A stretch of 64,000 nucleotides of DNA, taken from contig NZ_CP019067.1 of assembly GCF_001989615.1 (NCBI RefSeq), positions 1,054,001 through 1,118,000 on the forward strand, read 5' to 3'. Position 1 is the first letter of the stretch; the number at the start of each line of letters is the position of its first letter. The notes under the pieces were generated by a model. The model did not search any database. It saw nothing but the letters and a program-made list of their open reading frames with translations, and was not told the DNA's origin. The position numbers and the translations under genes are program-made. Positions 61-47,838 of this stretch are shown here, one piece after another. The stretch comes from Halorientalis sp. IM1011 (GTDB lineage Archaea > Halobacteriota > Halobacteria > Halobacteriales > Haloarculaceae).

Positions 61-80
61 AGCTGATCGTTGGTAAGACG

Positions 81-90
81 AAGATAAAAC
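81..90 (-). promoter_or_regulatory. TATA-like promoter element for the gene starting at 60
   Basis: On the minus strand this reads GTTTTATCTT, the only AT-rich block in the region, and it is centred about 26 bases upstream of the start codon. That spacing fits a leaderless archaeal promoter. Confidence 0.45.
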
Positions 91-121
91 GGCTTCGACT
101 AGCCATCTTGGCCGATTCGCT

Positions 122-144
122 CACGGACGGCTGCGCCGTCCGTG
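122..144 (-). terminator. Hairpin downstream of the SPFH gene
   Basis: A perfect 10-bp inverted repeat (122-131 with 135-144, 3-base loop) begins 26 bases after the stop codon of the SPFH gene. It probably ends or stabilises that transcript. No strong U-tract follows. Confidence 0.4.
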
Positions 145-169
145 CGCCTCGATTGCGGCGATGGTCCGG

Positions 170-1351
170 TTACTTGCTGTCGGACTCGCCGTCGGTGTCG
201 CTGTCGTCCATGCTCGTTCCGCCGCCACCGCCGGTCTCGAAGTCGTCGTCCATCTCGTCGATGACCTCGTCGGGGTCCTTGATGTCGGCGGGGTTGTCGC
301 CCTGTTTGACGGCCTTGGCCTGTTCCTCCATCGCTTCGACGTCGACCTCGGCCTCCTGGTCGATCTGGCCGAGTATCTCCTCGATGTTGTCGAGACCGAG
401 CATCTCGCGAGTCTCGCTGTCGAACTCAAGGCTGTCGAGGGTGCCCTCGCCGTTGGTCTGGACGTCGCTGCCGGAGAGGTGCTTGCCGTAGCGGCCGACC
501 ATCGACGTCAGTTCCTGGGGCAGGACGAAGGTCGTCGACTCGCCCTGACCGATGTTCTCCAGCGTCTCCATGCCTTTCTCGATGACGGCGCGTTCGCCCA
601 TCGACTCGGCGGATTTCGCGCGCAGCACGGTCGAAATCGCGTCACCCTGGGCTTCGAGGATCTGGCTCTGCTTTTCACCCTGTGCGCGGATGATGTTGGA
701 CTGCTTGTCACCTTCGGCCTTCTCGACGGCGGAGCGGCGTTCACCCTGCGCTTCGAGGATCATCGCACGGCGGCGACGCTCGGCGGAGGTCTGCTGTTCC
801 ATGGCCTGCTGGACGTCCTGGGAGGGGTTGACCTCGCGGACCTCGACGGACTCGACGCGGATCCCCCACTCGTCGGTGGGTTCGTCGAGTTCCTTGCGGA
901 TCTTGGCGTTGATCTCCTGGCGCTTGTTCAGCGTGTCGTCGAGTTCCATGTCGCCCAGCACGGCGCGGAGGGTGGTCTGGGCGAGGTTGGAGACGGCGCG
1001 TTTGTAGTCGTCGACTTCGAGGTAGGCCTTCTTCGCGTCCATCACCTTGATGTAGACGACGGCGTCGGCGGTCACCGGCGAGTTGTCGCGGGTGATCGCT
1101 TCCTGCCGGGGCACGTCCAGCGTCTGGGTCCGCATGTCGAACGTGTGGGTGCGCGAGACGAACGGCGGGACGAAGCTGATCCCGGGTTCGAGCAGTTTGC
1201 GGTACTCGCCGAAGACCGTCAGCGCGCGCTTTTCCGTCGCGTCGACGATCTCGACCATCTGGTAGACCGTGACCACGGCGAGCACCAGCACCAGGATCAG
1301 GACGATGCTGACGGTGCCACTGCCGAGTTGCAGTACTGTCGCGGGGAGCAT
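170..1351 (-). CDS. SPFH/Band 7 (stomatin-like) membrane protein
   Basis: A 393-residue protein with one N-terminal hydrophobic helix (about residues 12-33), then a Band 7/SPFH domain containing the typical VDATEKRALTVFGEY and RTQTLDVPRQE segments. A long Ala/Glu/Gln-rich helical region follows, in which AQGE/AEGDKQS heptad-like stretches recur (about 190-260). An acidic Gly/Asp/Ser tail ends the protein. Stomatin/prohibitin-type proteins oligomerise in membrane microdomains and often pair with NfeD proteins; one lies upstream on the same strand (1925-2512), although 573 bases separate them. The ATG at 1351 is preferred over an upstream in-frame start at 1420, because the upstream residues are not hydrophobic or family-like and a TATA-like CTTTTCT sits near 1372-1382. 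Substrates are unknown. Confidence 0.92.
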   Translation of the reverse strand: MLPATVLQLGSGTVSIVLILVLVLAVVTVYQMVEIVDATEKRALTVFGEYRKLLEPGISFVPPFVSRTHTFDMRTQTLDVPRQEAITRDNSPVTADAVVYIKVMDAKKAYLEVDDYKRAVSNLAQTTLRAVLGDMELDDTLNKRQEINAKIRKELDEPTDEWGIRVESVEVREVNPSQDVQQAMEQQTSAERRRRAMILEAQGERRSAVEKAEGDKQSNIIRAQGEKQSQILEAQGDAISTVLRAKSAESMGERAVIEKGMETLENIGQGESTTFVLPQELTSMVGRYGKHLSGSDVQTNGEGTLDSLEFDSETREMLGLDNIEEILGQIDQEAEVDVEAMEEQAKAVKQGDNPADIKDPDEVIDEMDDDFETGGGGGTSMDDSDTDGESDSK

Positions 1352-38488: not shown

Positions 38489-40204
38489 GTGTGGGATATT
38501 AGCACACTTTCGGCCGTCTATGCGATCACCCTCGGCGTCGGGGTCACCGCGGCGCTCATCGCGTGGCGTGAGCGTGACGAACCGGGTGCACTCCCGCTGA
38601 TGGGTATGTTTATCGGGCAGTGTCTCTGGGTGACGTTCGCCCTGTTCGACCTGCAGTCCGGCACCTTCGAGGGGAAACTACTCTGGAGCGAACTGCTCTG
38701 GATCGGTGTCGTCGTCATCCCCGTCTGCTGGCTGCTGTTCTCGCTCGAATACACCGGACGCGACCAGTTCGTCAGGCCACGGTACATCCTCGTCCTCTCG
38801 GTCGTCCCCGCCATCACTGTCGTTCTGGCGGTGACCAGCAGATCCCACGACCTGCTGTACACGTCGTCGGAACTCGTGATGTACCAGGGCCAGACGTTCC
38901 TGAACCGGTCTATCGGCCCCTGGATCTGGGTCATCATGGGATATACGTACCTGCTGGGCGTCCTCGGTTCGATTCCCCTGCTCGATTTCATCAGGTGTGA
39001 ATCGACGATGTTCCGCGGACAGAGCGGGGCGATCCTCCTGGGAACGCTGGCCCCGTGGGTGAGCAACGCGCTCTTTCTCGGCGGCGTGATCTCGATTCCC
39101 GCGTTCGATCCGACGCCGATCGCGTTCTCGGTGTCCGGGATCGCGTATCTCGGCGCCGTCACCCGGTTTCAGCTGTTCAGTACGACGCCGTCGGCCGGAC
39201 AACACGCCCGCCGGTTGTTCATCGACCAGTTGCAGGAAGGTGTCGTCGTGATCGACGACCACGGATTCGTGGTCGACGTCAACGACAGCGCACGGGAGAT
39301 CTTCGGCGTGGGAGAGGAGCGAATCCTCGGCGATCAGGCGCGGACACTCTTCCGACGGTGTGATACGGCCGAACGCGACGACGTTCACAGCAGTGGAAAG
39401 ACGATCTACAGTCCGCACACGGAGACGCTGTACGACATCACCCGGACGGAAATCTCGGACAGCCACGACCGACGGGTCGGGATGATATTCTCCTTCCACG
39501 ACGTCGGCGATCACGTCCGGAACCAGCAGCGCCACGAGGTGCTGAACCGACTGTTTCGACACAACATCCGGACGGAGACGAACCTGATACTCAGCCACGC
39601 GGAACTGCTCGAATCCGATCCCGATACCGGCGATCCCGCCACGATCAAACGGGGTGCCTATCGGATCGAGGACACGGCCGAGAAGGCCCGCACGATCCTC
39701 GACGTGTTCGAACGGGGTCGGACGCGAGACACCGCCGCGGACCTCTCCATGCTGCTCTCCCGCTGTGTCGATCTGACTGCCGCCCGGTATCCGACGGCGA
39801 CCATCGAGTCCGACCCCGTCCCGGACGGGGTGTACGTTTCCGAGGTCCTCGAAACGGTGTTTCTGAACGTGCTCGACAACGCCGTCGATCACAACGACGA
39901 CTCGAACCCACACGTCTGGGTGACCGTCGAAACGGACGAGGAGACCGTCACGGTCGAGTTCGCCGACGACGGTCCCGGTATCGACGACTACGAGCGATCG
40001 GTCATCGAGCGCGGGACCGAGAACTCGCTCCAGCACAGCAGCGGCCTCGGCCTCTGGCTGATCAAGTGGGGAACCGAGATCGCCGACGGGACGGTCACCT
40101 TCCGGGAGAACGACCCGACCGGAACGGTCCTCACGATCACCGTTCCGACGGTCGATCCGGCGGCGAAGATGGGGACCGATCTTGAACGACTGCTCGAACC
40201 CTGA
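38489..40204 (+). CDS. 7TM-sensor histidine kinase with PAS domain
   Basis: A 571-residue membrane histidine kinase. Residues 1-215 are the seven-helix sensor domain (N-terminal 7TM type), residues about 230-335 a PAS domain (GVVVIDDHGFVVDVNDSAREIFGV), then a histidine-box LFRHNIRTETNLI with the likely phosphorylated His (about 352-364) and the HATPase domain (N box VFLNVLDNAVDHND, G1 FADDGPGIDD, G2 SGLGLWLIKW). No response regulator is next to it. The start is GTG with a TATA-like element 26 bases upstream. Signal unknown. Confidence 0.93.
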   Translation: MWDISTLSAVYAITLGVGVTAALIAWRERDEPGALPLMGMFIGQCLWVTFALFDLQSGTFEGKLLWSELLWIGVVVIPVCWLLFSLEYTGRDQFVRPRYILVLSVVPAITVVLAVTSRSHDLLYTSSELVMYQGQTFLNRSIGPWIWVIMGYTYLLGVLGSIPLLDFIRCESTMFRGQSGAILLGTLAPWVSNALFLGGVISIPAFDPTPIAFSVSGIAYLGAVTRFQLFSTTPSAGQHARRLFIDQLQEGVVVIDDHGFVVDVNDSAREIFGVGEERILGDQARTLFRRCDTAERDDVHSSGKTIYSPHTETLYDITRTEISDSHDRRVGMIFSFHDVGDHVRNQQRHEVLNRLFRHNIRTETNLILSHAELLESDPDTGDPATIKRGAYRIEDTAEKARTILDVFERGRTRDTAADLSMLLSRCVDLTAARYPTATIESDPVPDGVYVSEVLETVFLNVLDNAVDHNDDSNPHVWVTVETDEETVTVEFADDGPGIDDYERSVIERGTENSLQHSSGLGLWLIKWGTEIADGTVTFRENDPTGTVLTITVPTVDPAAKMGTDLERLLEP

Positions 40205-40277
40205 GTCCGCGCCGCAACCGTCCGGAACTCGCCGGCAACGACCACCTTTTATTCGCCCGGGGGACCGACCGGGAGGC

Positions 40278-41105
40278 ATGACTGAAGTCGAAGCGTTCGT
40301 CCCGGGCCACGTCACCGGCTTTTTCACCATCCACCGGGACGACGACCCGACGAAGGCTGGGTCGCGGGGCGCGGGGCTGACACTCACCGACGGCGTCACC
40401 GTCACCGTCCGCCCGGCCGAGGAGACGAGTGTCCGCTGTAACGACGTCCCGGTCGAGATGGACGCCGTCGAGACGGTCCTCGACACGCTCCAGGCGACCG
40501 CCCGCGTGGACGGGCAGACGCCACTGCCCATCGGCTCCGGGTTCGGCGTCTCGGGCGCGATGGCACTCGGCACCGCGCTGGCGGTCAACGAGGCGTTCGA
40601 TCGCCGGCTCTCGGTCAACGAACTCGTCACCATCGCTCACGGCGCGGAAGTGCAGGCGGGTACGGGACTGGGCGACGTGGTAGCGCAGGCCCACGGCGGC
40701 GTCCCGATCAGACTCGAACCCGGCGGGCCACAGGACAACCTGCTGGATGCGATCCCCGCACGCGGTCCCATCGAGTACCACACGCTGGGGGAACTCTCGA
40801 CCGAGGAAGTCATCTCCGGAAACACGGAGCTGCTGGATCAGGCCGGCAAGCGCGGGCTCTCCCGCGTGGTCGAGGAGCCCACGCTGTCGTCGTTCATGCG
40901 TGCGTCCCGGCAGTTCGCCCGTGAGGCCGAACTGCTCACCCCCGAGGTCCGGGACGTGATCCTCGACGTGAACGAGGCCGGCGGCGACGCCTCGATGGCG
41001 ATGCTCGGACAAACCGTGTTCTCCATCGACGGCGGGCTCTCGGCGGCCGGCTACGACCCCGCGACCTGCCGGATCGACCCGACGGGCGCGCGACTGCTGG
41101 AGTAG
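40278..41105 (+). CDS. Pantoate kinase (GHMP kinase family)
   Basis: A 275-residue GHMP-fold kinase that makes 4-phosphopantoate in the archaeal CoA pathway. The N-terminus (EAFVPGHVTGFFTIH) matches archaeal pantoate kinases, and the ATP-binding glycine loop is PLPIGSGFGVSGAMALGTAL (about residues 82-101). It replaces bacterial pantothenate synthetase/kinase chemistry together with the ligase at 44179. A GGGAGG ribosome-binding site precedes the ATG. The 13-repeat membrane protein lies between the two pathway genes. Confidence 0.93.
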   Translation: MTEVEAFVPGHVTGFFTIHRDDDPTKAGSRGAGLTLTDGVTVTVRPAEETSVRCNDVPVEMDAVETVLDTLQATARVDGQTPLPIGSGFGVSGAMALGTALAVNEAFDRRLSVNELVTIAHGAEVQAGTGLGDVVAQAHGGVPIRLEPGGPQDNLLDAIPARGPIEYHTLGELSTEEVISGNTELLDQAGKRGLSRVVEEPTLSSFMRASRQFAREAELLTPEVRDVILDVNEAGGDASMAMLGQTVFSIDGGLSAAGYDPATCRIDPTGARLLE

Positions 41106-41185
41106 CGGTCCGATTTCGGTCGCCGAGCTTCGTGTGAACCAACCCCACGTTTAAGGTACCGAGTGGTCCAACCACGAACTGTACA

Positions 41186-44110
41186 ATGGCAACGGGATCG
41201 CAGCCTGACAGCGTCTTCTACGGCCTCTACGACGAGTACATGGGGGAGGCACGGACGAAACCGGAGGTGTACGGCTACTGGGTACTGGTGATCGGACTGC
41301 TCGCGGTACTGGCTGGCGTGGTGGTGTTCGCCACCGGCAGGACGGGACTGCTCGGACTCGGGCCGGTGGCCGTCACGGAACTCGCGCTGGTGTTCGTGGC
41401 GGCCGGGGGCCCGCTTTTCCTCCTGGGTGCGATCCTCCAGTTGCCCCTCCGCAGGCGGGCGGTGCCGGTCGCCGTCCTCGGCGCGCTCGCGTCCGTCGCC
41501 ACCGTCGGGTACTTCCTGCAGATATACCCGAATCAGTGGGGCGTCGGGCGGACCGAAGGGCAACTCTTCCTCGCGGGCTACGGCGGCGGACTGGCACTGC
41601 TGGCGCTGGTCGCTGCCCTCGTGCCGGTGGTGACCGGCAGACGGAGTTACTTCCTGGCCGACGAGGCGGCGAGCGCGCAAGGGTGGGTGGTCGAGGACGA
41701 GACCGAAACCCGCGTCTCGGACGTGCTGGTCGGCGAGGCCGACCGCGACGGTGTGTTCGCGGTGTTCCCGGGCGAGTCGGGCTGGCACTGGTGGTTCGTC
41801 GAGCAGGCGGCCGTCGCCGACGGCACCCGGGCCTACGACAGTCGGGCCGACGCCGAGACCGCGCTCGAAGGGATCAAGGCGAAGGTGGCGGGTGCGAGCC
41901 TGCTCGAAATCAACCACGCCGCGTTCAGGCTGTACCGCGACGACGACGAGGACGGCGAGTCGACCGTCCGCTGGCGGCTGGTCGACGAGGACGGCGTCGT
42001 GCTGGCCGACAGCGACGGCCGCTACGCCGACCGCGAAAAGGCCGAGAACGCGGTGAACCTGCTGAAGGAACACGGTCCCGGTGCCTCGCTGCTCGACGTG
42101 GAGGAGGGTGCCTTCGAGGTGTACGGTGACGGCTCGGAGTGGCGCTGGCGGCTGGTCGACGAGGACCGCGGCGTGCTGGGCGAGAGTCCGCAGGCCTACG
42201 AGGACCGCGAAGCGGCCGAGGCGTCGGTCGCCTCGATCCGGGAGGTCGCCCGCGAGTCGCCGGTGATGGACGTGGAATCGGTCGGCGTCGAGTTGATAGA
42301 GGACGAGGGTACCTGGCGCTGGGAGCTGGTCGACGCCGACGACGAGACTATCGCGGAGTCCTGCGACGAGTTCGAGAGCCGCGAGGCGGTCGAGGACTCC
42401 GTTCGCCGGATCATGGACGGGGCCGTCGACGTGCCCTTCCTCGAAGCGAACTCGCCCGCCTACGAGATCGTCGAGGACGAGGCGGGCGGCTGGCGCTGGC
42501 GGCTGGTCGACGACGAGGACGTGGTCGTCGCCCGCAGCGAGGGCGCGGTCCCCTCCGAGGAGAGCGGGCGCTCGGTCGTGAGCCGCGTGAAAGACGTGGT
42601 CGAGGACGCGCCGGTCGTCGAACTCGACGACGCGGAGTACGAGATCTACCCCGAGGGCGACCGGTGGGCCTGGCGGCTCGTCACGGAGGACCGCGAGATC
42701 GTCGCGCGCAGTCCGGCCAGTGCGACTTTCGAGGACCCGGCGGCCGCGGAAGCGGCCGTCGAGGGGATGCGCGAGGAGATCGCGGACGCCGACCGGATCG
42801 AGTTCGACAGCGCCGCCTTCCACCTCTACGAGGCCGACGAGGGGAGCTGGAACTGGCGGCTGGTCGACGCCGACGGCAGCGTCGTCTCCGACAGCGGCCA
42901 GGAACACGCCTCCCGCGAGGACGCCGCGGCCGCGATGAACACGATGAAAGAACACGCACCCGACGCCGACCTCGTCGAGATCGGCAGCGCAGCACTGGAG
43001 CTGTACGAAGCGGATTCGGAGTGGCACTGGCGGCTGGTCGACGCCAGTGGGGAGACGCTGGCGACCAGTCCCGGCCGGTACGAGAGCGACGAATCCGCTC
43101 GCGAGGCGATGGACGCCCTCTCGATTCTCGCTCCCGAGGCCGACACGCGCCGGATGGACGCCGCCGTCTTCCAGGTGTACGTCGACGAGGGCGAGCGCCG
43201 GCAGTGGCGCTGGCGGCTGATCCATCCCGACGGGAGCACGATCGCCCGCAGCCGCGAGGGCTTCGCCGACCGGGAGAGCGCGACCGAGTCCGCCGGGTCG
43301 GTCGCCAACTTCGCCGCCGACGCGGCCGTCCACACCGTCGGGGACGTGGCGATCCGCTTCTCGGTCACCGTGGGCGAGGAGGGCGAGGCATGGGAGTGGG
43401 AGATCGTCGACCGCGAGCGCGACCCGCTGGCCGTCGGCACCGAGCAGTTCCCCTCCCGCGACGCCGTGGCGTCGACCGCCCGCCTCGTCCGGGACAACGC
43501 GGGTGGCGCGAGCGTCTTCGCCGTCGACCCGGCGGCGTTTCGCGTCGAAGCCGTCGAGGATGCCGAGGCCGACCGCTGGCGCTGGCGACTCGTGGACGCC
43601 GACCGGTCGACGCTGGCGGTCGGGGCCCGGACCCACGAGAGCCGCGAGAGCGCCCGGGTCGACCTGACGCGGGCCCGCGAACTCGCCGGCGGCGCGGGCC
43701 TGCTGGATTTCGACCTCGCCGCGTTCGAGGTCACCGAACGCGAGGCGGGGTGGATCTGGCGGTTCGTCGACACCGCGGGGAACACCGTCGGCGTCAGCGG
43801 CCCGACCTTCGACTCCCGGAGCGCAGCAGAGCGCGCGCTCGCGTCCGTCCGGGAGATGCTGACGACGGCGAGCCTGCTGGAGATCGAATCGCCGGCCTTC
43901 GAACTCCACGAGGACGCGGGAGACGGTGAGGAGGCCGTCGACGCCACACCGGGCCGCGGGACGGGCGAGTGGCGCTGGCGACTGGTCGATACGGACGGAC
44001 GGACCGTCGCCGAGAGCAAACGGACCTACCAGACCCGCCGTGAGGCGCGGGAGGCACTGGGAAGTCTCCGGGAGTTCGGCCCCGACGCCGCCACCGAGAC
44101 CCAGGCCTGA
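41186..44110 (+). CDS. Membrane protein with 13 tandem DUF1508-type repeats
   Basis: A 974-residue protein. Residues about 28-170 form around four transmembrane helices. From about residue 190 to the end there are 13 tandem units of roughly 60 residues, each with a core such as W-R-W-R-L-V-D and then a charged, alternating segment that ends R-E-x-A-x-x-(A/S)-(V/L). The cores are near residues 200, 261, 319, 377, 436, 493, 554, 613, 673, 735, 798, 855 and 929. DUF1508 (YegP-like) units are usually one or two per protein, and they form small beta-rich domains. Here they form a long acidic soluble array. It lies between two CoA genes but shows no enzymatic motif. Confidence 0.9.
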   Translation: MATGSQPDSVFYGLYDEYMGEARTKPEVYGYWVLVIGLLAVLAGVVVFATGRTGLLGLGPVAVTELALVFVAAGGPLFLLGAILQLPLRRRAVPVAVLGALASVATVGYFLQIYPNQWGVGRTEGQLFLAGYGGGLALLALVAALVPVVTGRRSYFLADEAASAQGWVVEDETETRVSDVLVGEADRDGVFAVFPGESGWHWWFVEQAAVADGTRAYDSRADAETALEGIKAKVAGASLLEINHAAFRLYRDDDEDGESTVRWRLVDEDGVVLADSDGRYADREKAENAVNLLKEHGPGASLLDVEEGAFEVYGDGSEWRWRLVDEDRGVLGESPQAYEDREAAEASVASIREVARESPVMDVESVGVELIEDEGTWRWELVDADDETIAESCDEFESREAVEDSVRRIMDGAVDVPFLEANSPAYEIVEDEAGGWRWRLVDDEDVVVARSEGAVPSEESGRSVVSRVKDVVEDAPVVELDDAEYEIYPEGDRWAWRLVTEDREIVARSPASATFEDPAAAEAAVEGMREEIADADRIEFDSAAFHLYEADEGSWNWRLVDADGSVVSDSGQEHASREDAAAAMNTMKEHAPDADLVEIGSAALELYEADSEWHWRLVDASGETLATSPGRYESDESAREAMDALSILAPEADTRRMDAAVFQVYVDEGERRQWRWRLIHPDGSTIARSREGFADRESATESAGSVANFAADAAVHTVGDVAIRFSVTVGEEGEAWEWEIVDRERDPLAVGTEQFPSRDAVASTARLVRDNAGGASVFAVDPAAFRVEAVEDAEADRWRWRLVDADRSTLAVGARTHESRESARVDLTRARELAGGAGLLDFDLAAFEVTEREAGWIWRFVDTAGNTVGVSGPTFDSRSAAERALASVREMLTTASLLEIESPAFELHEDAGDGEEAVDATPGRGTGEWRWRLVDTDGRTVAESKRTYQTRREAREALGSLREFGPDAATETQA
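41786..44080 (+). repeat. 13 coding repeats of about 180 bp in the DUF1508 array
   Basis: Units recur about every 175-190 bases; the sequence TGGCGCTGGCGGCTGGTCGA or close variants of it (coding W-R-W-R-L-V-D) are visible near 42142, 42492 and 43579, and more diverged forms in the other units. The repeats are diverged at the DNA level, so the array is old rather than recently amplified. Confidence 0.75.
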
Positions 44111-44178: not shown

Positions 44179-44925
44179 ATGGACGAGATCGACGTTCCCG
44201 AGAGTCACCCCCGCTACGAGTCCCTCCTCACGCGACACCGGATCGAGGAGGGGGTCGACCTGGGGATCACCTCGCGACAGGGGCTGATCGCACAGGGCCG
44301 GGGCGAGGCCTACGACTACCTGCTCGGCGAGCGGACCCTCGAAAGCGCCGACAGCGCCGAACGCGCCGCCGCCGCCCATCTGCTTCTGGCCGACCACCCT
44401 GTCCTCTCGGTCAACGGCAACGCCGCTGCACTCGTGCCCGGCGAACTGGTGGACCTGGCAGAGGCGACTGGCGCGGATCTGGAGGTCAACCTGTTCAACC
44501 GAACCGAGGAACGCATGGAACGCATCGCCGACCACCTCCGCGAGCACGGGGCCGAGGCGGTCAAGGGCCTCGACGCCGACGGCCGGATCCCCGGCCTCGA
44601 CCACGAGCGCGCGAAGGTCGACGCCGACGGCATCGGCGACGCCGACGTGGTGCTCGTCCCCCTCGAAGACGGCGACCGGGCCGAGGCGCTCGCGGAGATG
44701 GGCAAGACGGAACTCGTGATCGACCTGAACCCGCTCTCCCGTTCGGCCCAGACCGCGACGGTCCCGATCGTCGACAACATCATCCGTGCGGTGCCGGGGA
44801 TCACCGCCCACGCCCGTGACCTCGCGGACGCCTCCCGGGCCGAACTGGAGGGGGTCGTCGAGAAGTTCGACCGCGAGGCGGCCCTGCGGGCGGCCGAGGA
44901 CGCGATCAGGAGCGGCGAGCTGTGA
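44179..44925 (+). CDS. 4-Phosphopantoate--beta-alanine ligase (phosphopantothenate synthetase)
   Basis: A 248-residue archaeal phosphopantothenate synthetase that joins 4-phosphopantoate and beta-alanine using ATP. Family segments include IPESHPRYESLLTRHRIEEGVDLGITSRQGLIAQGRGEAYDYLLGE at the N-terminus, VNGNAAALVPGELVDLAEATGADLEVNLFNRTEER, and VIDLNPLSRSAQTATVPIVDNIIRA at the C-terminus. The upstream pantoate kinase supplies one substrate, and MfnA (8871-9923) probably supplies beta-alanine. It is convergent with the next kinase gene (6-base gap). Confidence 0.94.
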   Translation: MDEIDVPESHPRYESLLTRHRIEEGVDLGITSRQGLIAQGRGEAYDYLLGERTLESADSAERAAAAHLLLADHPVLSVNGNAAALVPGELVDLAEATGADLEVNLFNRTEERMERIADHLREHGAEAVKGLDADGRIPGLDHERAKVDADGIGDADVVLVPLEDGDRAEALAEMGKTELVIDLNPLSRSAQTATVPIVDNIIRAVPGITAHARDLADASRAELEGVVEKFDREAALRAAEDAIRSGEL

Positions 44926-44931
44926 CGCCGA

Positions 44932-47838
<2,907 letters not shown>

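Follow-up and report, generated by a model that had tools for sequence, protein, structure and literature searches.

A fixed-number array of 13 DUF1508 units on a DUF7139 membrane anchor at a haloarchaeal coenzyme A locus

Gene and domain organization

The window, as we call the whole 64,000-nucleotide stretch of the Halorientalis sp. IM1011 genome that was analysed, contains an open reading frame for a membrane protein in which a DUF7139 domain precedes 13 DUF1508 units (Table 1). The initial annotation had described 13 such units on a four-helix membrane anchor, and the Pfam search, a family-specific profile and an AlphaFold model all confirm this. Pfam assigns the N-terminal region to DUF7139 (PF23600) with an E-value of 4.8e-22 and 78.6 bits (cut-off 30), covering profile positions 5–148 of 150. 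The anchor was thus rightly recognized, but this N-terminal part is an already named and near-universal haloarchaeal family. A conserved lead motif with the consensus LYxxYVGEPxSKxDVYGYW stands before the first helix; hydropathy and AlphaFold concur on four membrane helices, and the part of the model C-terminal to them consists of 13 β-β-β-α units.

For the whole protein, the Pfam search gave a DUF1508 (PF07411) match with an E-value of 7.4e-85 and 279 bits in 11 separate stretches, and 11 units each exceed the Pfam cut-off (22 bits) singly. Units 1 and 10 fall below this cut-off singly and are recovered by the family-specific profile, which was made from the array units themselves together with their relatives and finds 13 units in total, each scoring 31.7 to 69 bits. 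Unit 6 has long insertions in many Natrialbaceae, and in unit 13 a loop insertion separates strands 1 and 2. The non-enzymatic look of the protein, remarked on earlier, is supported. The domains are known ones, whose arrangement here is unusual and strictly conserved. Our literature search returned papers on DUF1508, none of them about the 13-unit protein, and none on DUF7139.

Table 1. Positions of the features at the array locus (window coordinates) and of a second DUF1508 protein of the same genome.
Feature	Position	Strand	Evidence
Pantoate kinase, upstream neighbour, 80-base gap	40182..41105	+	annotation of neighbours; conserved position
Possible archaeal TATA-like stretch (TTTAAG), ~35 bases 5' of ATG	41145..41165	+	read directly
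974-residue membrane protein, DUF7139 anchor and 13 DUF1508 units	41186..44110	+	ORF, Pfam, family-specific profile
DUF7139 membrane domain, residues 13–154	41222..41647	+	Pfam
TM helix 1, residues 25–52	41258..41341	+	hydropathy, AlphaFold model
TM helix 2, residues 60–84	41363..41437	+	AlphaFold model; K/R-rich inner loop after
TM helix 3, residues 92–113	41459..41524	+	AlphaFold model
TM helix 4, residues 123–150	41552..41635	+	AlphaFold model; GRR/GEK-type positive residues after
DUF1508 unit 1, residues 188–228, degenerate	41747..41869	+	32.7 bits (family-specific profile)
DUF1508 unit 2, residues 236–291	41891..42058	+	63.0 bits
DUF1508 unit 3, residues 299–350	42080..42235	+	68.4 bits
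DUF1508 unit 4, residues 358–409	42257..42412	+	56.1 bits
DUF1508 unit 5, residues 416–468	42431..42589	+	54.3 bits
DUF1508 unit 6, residues 474–526	42605..42763	+	family-specific profile
DUF1508 unit 7, residues 534–586, middle unit	42785..42943	+	family-specific profile; predicted hairpin tip
DUF1508 unit 8, residues 593–643	42962..43114	+	69.0 bits
DUF1508 unit 9, residues 651–706	43136..43303	+	56.1 bits
DUF1508 unit 10, residues 712–765, degenerate	43319..43480	+	31.7 bits (family-specific profile)
DUF1508 unit 11, residues 774–827	43505..43666	+	47.9 bits
DUF1508 unit 12, residues 836–888	43691..43849	+	58.9 bits
DUF1508 unit 13, residues 895–959	43868..44062	+	65.8 bits
4-Phosphopantoate--beta-alanine ligase, downstream neighbour, 68-base gap	44179..44925	+	annotation of neighbours; conserved position
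Amphi-Trp and DUF1508 protein	L001:535-1653 (G000:C1 ~1986786-1987904)

Genomic neighbourhood

The location between two coenzyme A (CoA) genes is as first described, the neighbours being pantoate kinase and 4-phosphopantoate--beta-alanine ligase. The same order (kinase, array, ligase) is found in Halorientalis, most Natrialbaceae, Halorubellus, Salinarchaeum and others, making this a conserved gene wedged into an archaeal CoA locus. Halosimplex, Halomarina, Haloferax marinum and a further genus have the array gene at another location, so the link to CoA is old but not obligatory. This distribution cuts both ways for the idea that the protein tethers the two CoA enzymes at the membrane. The shared location is what such a tether would lead one to look for, and where the array gene is absent the CoA pair can adjoin directly, as in a Halorientalis genome (G006) in which 60 bases separate the two genes; however, the CoA genes exist in genomes without the array gene and the array gene has other locations in several genera, and we regard a tether as improbable. 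Two similar multi-TM sensor histidine-kinase-like genes (∼25% alike) flank the CoA locus, at 38489-40204 and 44932-46761 of the window.

Constancy and age of the array

The copy number of tandem domain arrays is usually variable. Units scoring at least 20 bits with the family-specific profile were counted in copies from relatives, in 59 named genome records and in 80 further loci, and exactly 13 units were found in 116 of 122 distinct arrays; the repeat number, which the initial annotation had proposed to compare among haloarchaeal genomes, is therefore constant. Weak first units, frame breaks or contig ends explain the six exceptions: one has unit 1 at 15 bits, one is a second-copy paralog in which unit 1 cannot be detected, one has unit 1 in the preceding frame, and the others are due to the end of a contig, to a frameshift and to a metagenome copy that is broken. 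Of the 392 Halobacteriales genomes sampled, 102 have the 13-unit gene, as do 39 of 95 genera; every one of the nearest named genomes belongs to Halorientalis. Six Natrialbaceae genomes (G193, G133, G371, G316, G197 and G404) have a second, diverged 13-unit copy (L215-L220), with unit 1 below threshold in two of the six. The Natrinema thermotolerans copy (L058 / L135) has two overlapping frames inside the array, which points to a sequencing error or else to a gene that is broken.

When 364 units are placed in a tree, ten of the 13 positions in the 13-unit type each come out as a perfect group with members from all 21 genomes, and the remaining three are mostly grouped. Units cluster by position and not by genome across genera and families, which means that the length of 13 units predates the split of these families and that units have not been exchanged since. 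The same grouping rules out concerted evolution and recent amplification. Duplication with a period of two is ruled out as well; the similarity table has no two-unit rhythm in the likeness of neighbouring units.

Each unit is under purifying selection. Whole-gene dN/dS is 0.17–0.23 against the four nearest Halorientalis and 0.34–0.44 against two more distant ones, and by region it is 0.07–0.46 throughout (against the two nearest Halorientalis); values for single units scatter up to 0.88, from small counts. These values and the position-wise grouping bear out the earlier proposal that selection has maintained the array. Conservation peaks in unit 7 (score 3.49), with units 13, 2 and 8 next, and units 5, 10, 11 and 9 belong to the least conserved. 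No other unit comes as close to canonical DUF1508 as unit 7, whose ADSGQEY corresponds to ADSGEGY in a related five-unit type (see below).

A functionless repeat expansion, neutral or in decay, could be read into the weakness of units 1 and 10 and into a few frame-broken copies (L058/L135, L140 and L057). Against this stand the constant number, the position-specific conservation across families and the purifying selection, and we consider decay to be ruled out by the unit counts, the dN/dS values and the unit tree. The test for decay named at the outset, homologs with erratic repeat numbers and stop codons, thus turned out negative.

Membrane topology

Positively charged loops tend to lie on the cytoplasmic side of a membrane (the positive-inside rule). 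Across 21 orthologs, the loop between TM2 and TM3 has a mean of 2.5 K+R and 0.05 D+E and the stretch after TM4 a mean of 1.4 K+R, compared with 0.3 and 0.5 K+R for the two outer loops. By that rule, the bias would place both ends of the protein, and with them the array, in the cytoplasm. The window protein contains no N-glycosylation sequon, and the 21 arrays together have 12, compared with 21.5 expected from composition. The ‘long stalk’ of the initial annotation, if taken to point outwards, is not supported by this charge pattern. An outward stalk or adhesin would suit a long repeat array with an acidic surface on a membrane anchor, but the positive loops that the four helices place on the side of the N- and C-termini, the lack of a visible signal peptide, the sequon counts and a constant repeat number, unlike that of typical surface arrays, make it very improbable.

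Predicted fold and unit pairing

Two AlphaFold models were compared with known structures. Model 1 is of the full-length protein, from an alignment of 21 sequences, and has a mean pLDDT of 81 with a pTM of only 0.55. Model 2 is of the array only, with the Natrinema zhouii sequence as the query and 58 sequences, none of which is from the first alignment; its pLDDT is 84.7 and its pTM is 0.63. The best structural matches to model 1 are the two-unit bacterial proteins yegP (PDB entry 2k8e) and SO3888 (PDB entry 2k49), both with Z = 14.9. The superposition on 2k8e aligns 114 of 116 residues over the model range 240..903, running from unit 2 to unit 12. As two units of ∼57 residues fill 114 residues, the matching pair consists of units 2 and 12, which are not neighbours. 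In model 2 the match to 2k8e (Z = 16.0) spans 239..574, which is unit 5 with unit 9, and other rows join unit 2 to unit 12 (66..744). A YegP-like unit fold with two-unit pairing is thus found in both predicted models, with Z values of 14.9–16.0 to 2k8e and 2k49.

Unit pairs were read from the first and last aligned residues of the structural matches, and both models fit a register of i + j = 14, in which unit i lies against unit 14 − i in the manner of the two YegP halves. Read from these range ends, the models strongly hint at an antiparallel hairpin of six pseudo-dimers. The initial idea of the stalk as a straight fibre is not supported, both models folding back to about half the length. A register of i + j = 15 was dropped: the yegP match, in which nearly all residues are covered, stops at residue 903 in model 1 and 574 in model 2, where units 12 and 9 end. 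The ranges for 2k49 extend slightly further, into units 13 and 10, which we ascribe to the aligned tail or tag of 2k49, and some weak structural rows (prolyl oligopeptidase) pair unit i with unit 15 − i. Stacked mutual information over 116 sequences is highest for i + j = 14 among ten registers (z = 1.7, with Neff ∼52 and a noisy within-unit control), and a unit-level coevolution test of the pairing, underpowered at this Neff, is not significant (p = 0.17–0.35). Coevolution thus agrees weakly with the i + j = 14 hairpin.

Comparison with known proteins

YegP and SO3888 (UPF0339) share the unit fold and the two-unit pairing with the array (rmsd 1.6–3.0 over 107–114 residues). They are soluble proteins of two adjacent units, whereas in the array distant units of one chain are predicted to pair (2 with 12, 5 with 9) and there is a membrane anchor; with its 13 units, the window protein does not belong to the two-unit YegP type. 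The closest solved relative by sequence is HVO_2922 (PDB entry 6q2z; E = 2e-7, profile E = 1e-12), with unit 7 in the best stretch of both searches. HVO_2922 has 60 residues, a single unit and no membrane part, and the ‘two-unit haloarchaeal type’ cited by the initial annotation is in error: the two-unit proteins, YegP and SO3888, are bacterial. The 974-residue protein, with 13 units and a membrane domain, also falls outside the HVO_2922 equivalog (NF041908), the score of 285 bits being a sum over ten repeat stretches, and the HVO_2922 name would therefore mislead. The only other DUF1508 protein of the source genome combines an Amphi-Trp domain with a single canonical DUF1508 unit C-terminal to it (Table 1).

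Cis12 (All3315) from the thylakoid-anchored contractile injection system of Anabaena (PDB entry 7b5h) was found with a profile E-value of 1e-3 and at Foldseek rank 1. Its structural match has Z = 8.1–8.6 across models; VIA-align gives Z = 8.1 and an rmsd of 2.6 over 100 residues, and the match at Z = 8.1 covers the model range 69..738, which is units 2 and 12. A C-terminal extra region of Cis12, residues 610–1100, forms the connector from the baseplate to the membrane (PMC8894136), and the DUF1508-like part overlaps it. By analogy, Cis12 shows that such repeats can be structural spacers near a membrane. Cis12 differs in being a baseplate subunit of an injection system. The source genome has no tail-sheath gene, and sheath genes occur in 12 of 116 relatives, only three of which (G070, G080 and G112) have the 13-unit gene; the role of the array is therefore not the same as that of Cis12, and a link to an injection system through a Cis12-like membrane connector is ruled out. 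The phage family search gave only unnamed repeat-type matches. In 7b5h (chain AD), the membrane-connector region itself apparently consists of DUF1508-like units; DUF1508 is absent from the main text of the structural paper (PMC8894136).

A set of 18 paralogs (class B, L061-L078; for example L071:4932-6596) carries DUF7139 and exactly five DUF1508 units in 18 of 18 cases. They share the anchor, the domain type and a fixed number with the 13-unit protein and differ in that all of their units are canonical (NGNxIADSGEGY) and more alike one another than are those of the 13-unit type. CoA genes were looked for beside the class B genes and were not found. Alternating linker lengths in the class B sequences suggest one lone unit and two neighbour pairs.

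Model and function

The ‘scaffold of unknown purpose’ of the initial annotation remains the best reading. We put at about 50% the probability that the protein serves as a cytoplasmic scaffold or fixed-length spacer tethered to the membrane, with the array as a hairpin and unit 7 at its tip. Through the four DUF7139 helices it would be anchored in the cytoplasmic membrane, both termini lying inside, as the loop charges indicate, and the 13 units are predicted to fold back into an antiparallel two-stranded rod with the pairs 1:13, 2:12, 3:11, 4:10, 5:9 and 6:8. Unit 7 would cap the far end of the rod and the C-terminus would return to the membrane. Most units may have turned structural, with unit 7 retaining the canonical surface motif, which would make it the likeliest docking site for a partner. 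That partner may belong to CoA synthesis, with the flanking genes, a link that is weak because the array gene lies elsewhere in some genera. The number may be fixed at 13 because the loss or gain of one unit would shift every pair out of register.

More tentatively, the protein may be an intracellular membrane-anchored molecular ruler: a chain of 13 domains that zips up through six long-range pseudo-dimers and is capped by a unique, functional tip unit, and in which the pairing register would have frozen the repeat number across the order. We would hold this for possible and somewhat doubtful. The array, fixed at 13 across ∼39 genera with each unit having its own identity, makes a clean test case for repeat-number fixation, and it provides a concrete, testable fold for the widespread DUF1508 and DUF7139, neither of which has a known function.

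Nearly all Halobacteriales genomes (228 of 243) encode DUF7139, with C-terminal ends that vary: DUF7140 with a Cys motif, a short tail, or five or 13 DUF1508 units. These varied ends give DUF7139 the appearance of a general platform in the membrane whose inner ends can be exchanged. The same distribution would suit a membrane sensor or regulator, in which DUF7139 senses a cue in the membrane or outside and serves as a platform with interchangeable cytoplasmic ends, the DUF1508 array relaying the cue by binding or releasing a partner. A signalling domain is absent, however, neither DUF1508 nor DUF7139 has a known ligand and the short outer loops leave little room for an outside sensor; we judge such a role to be unlikely. 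The source genome encodes two further DUF7139 proteins (L079 and L080), one of which ends in DUF7140 with the Cys motif (CGNCEHF); the other has a short tail and is encoded just upstream of an apparent DNA primase large subunit gene.
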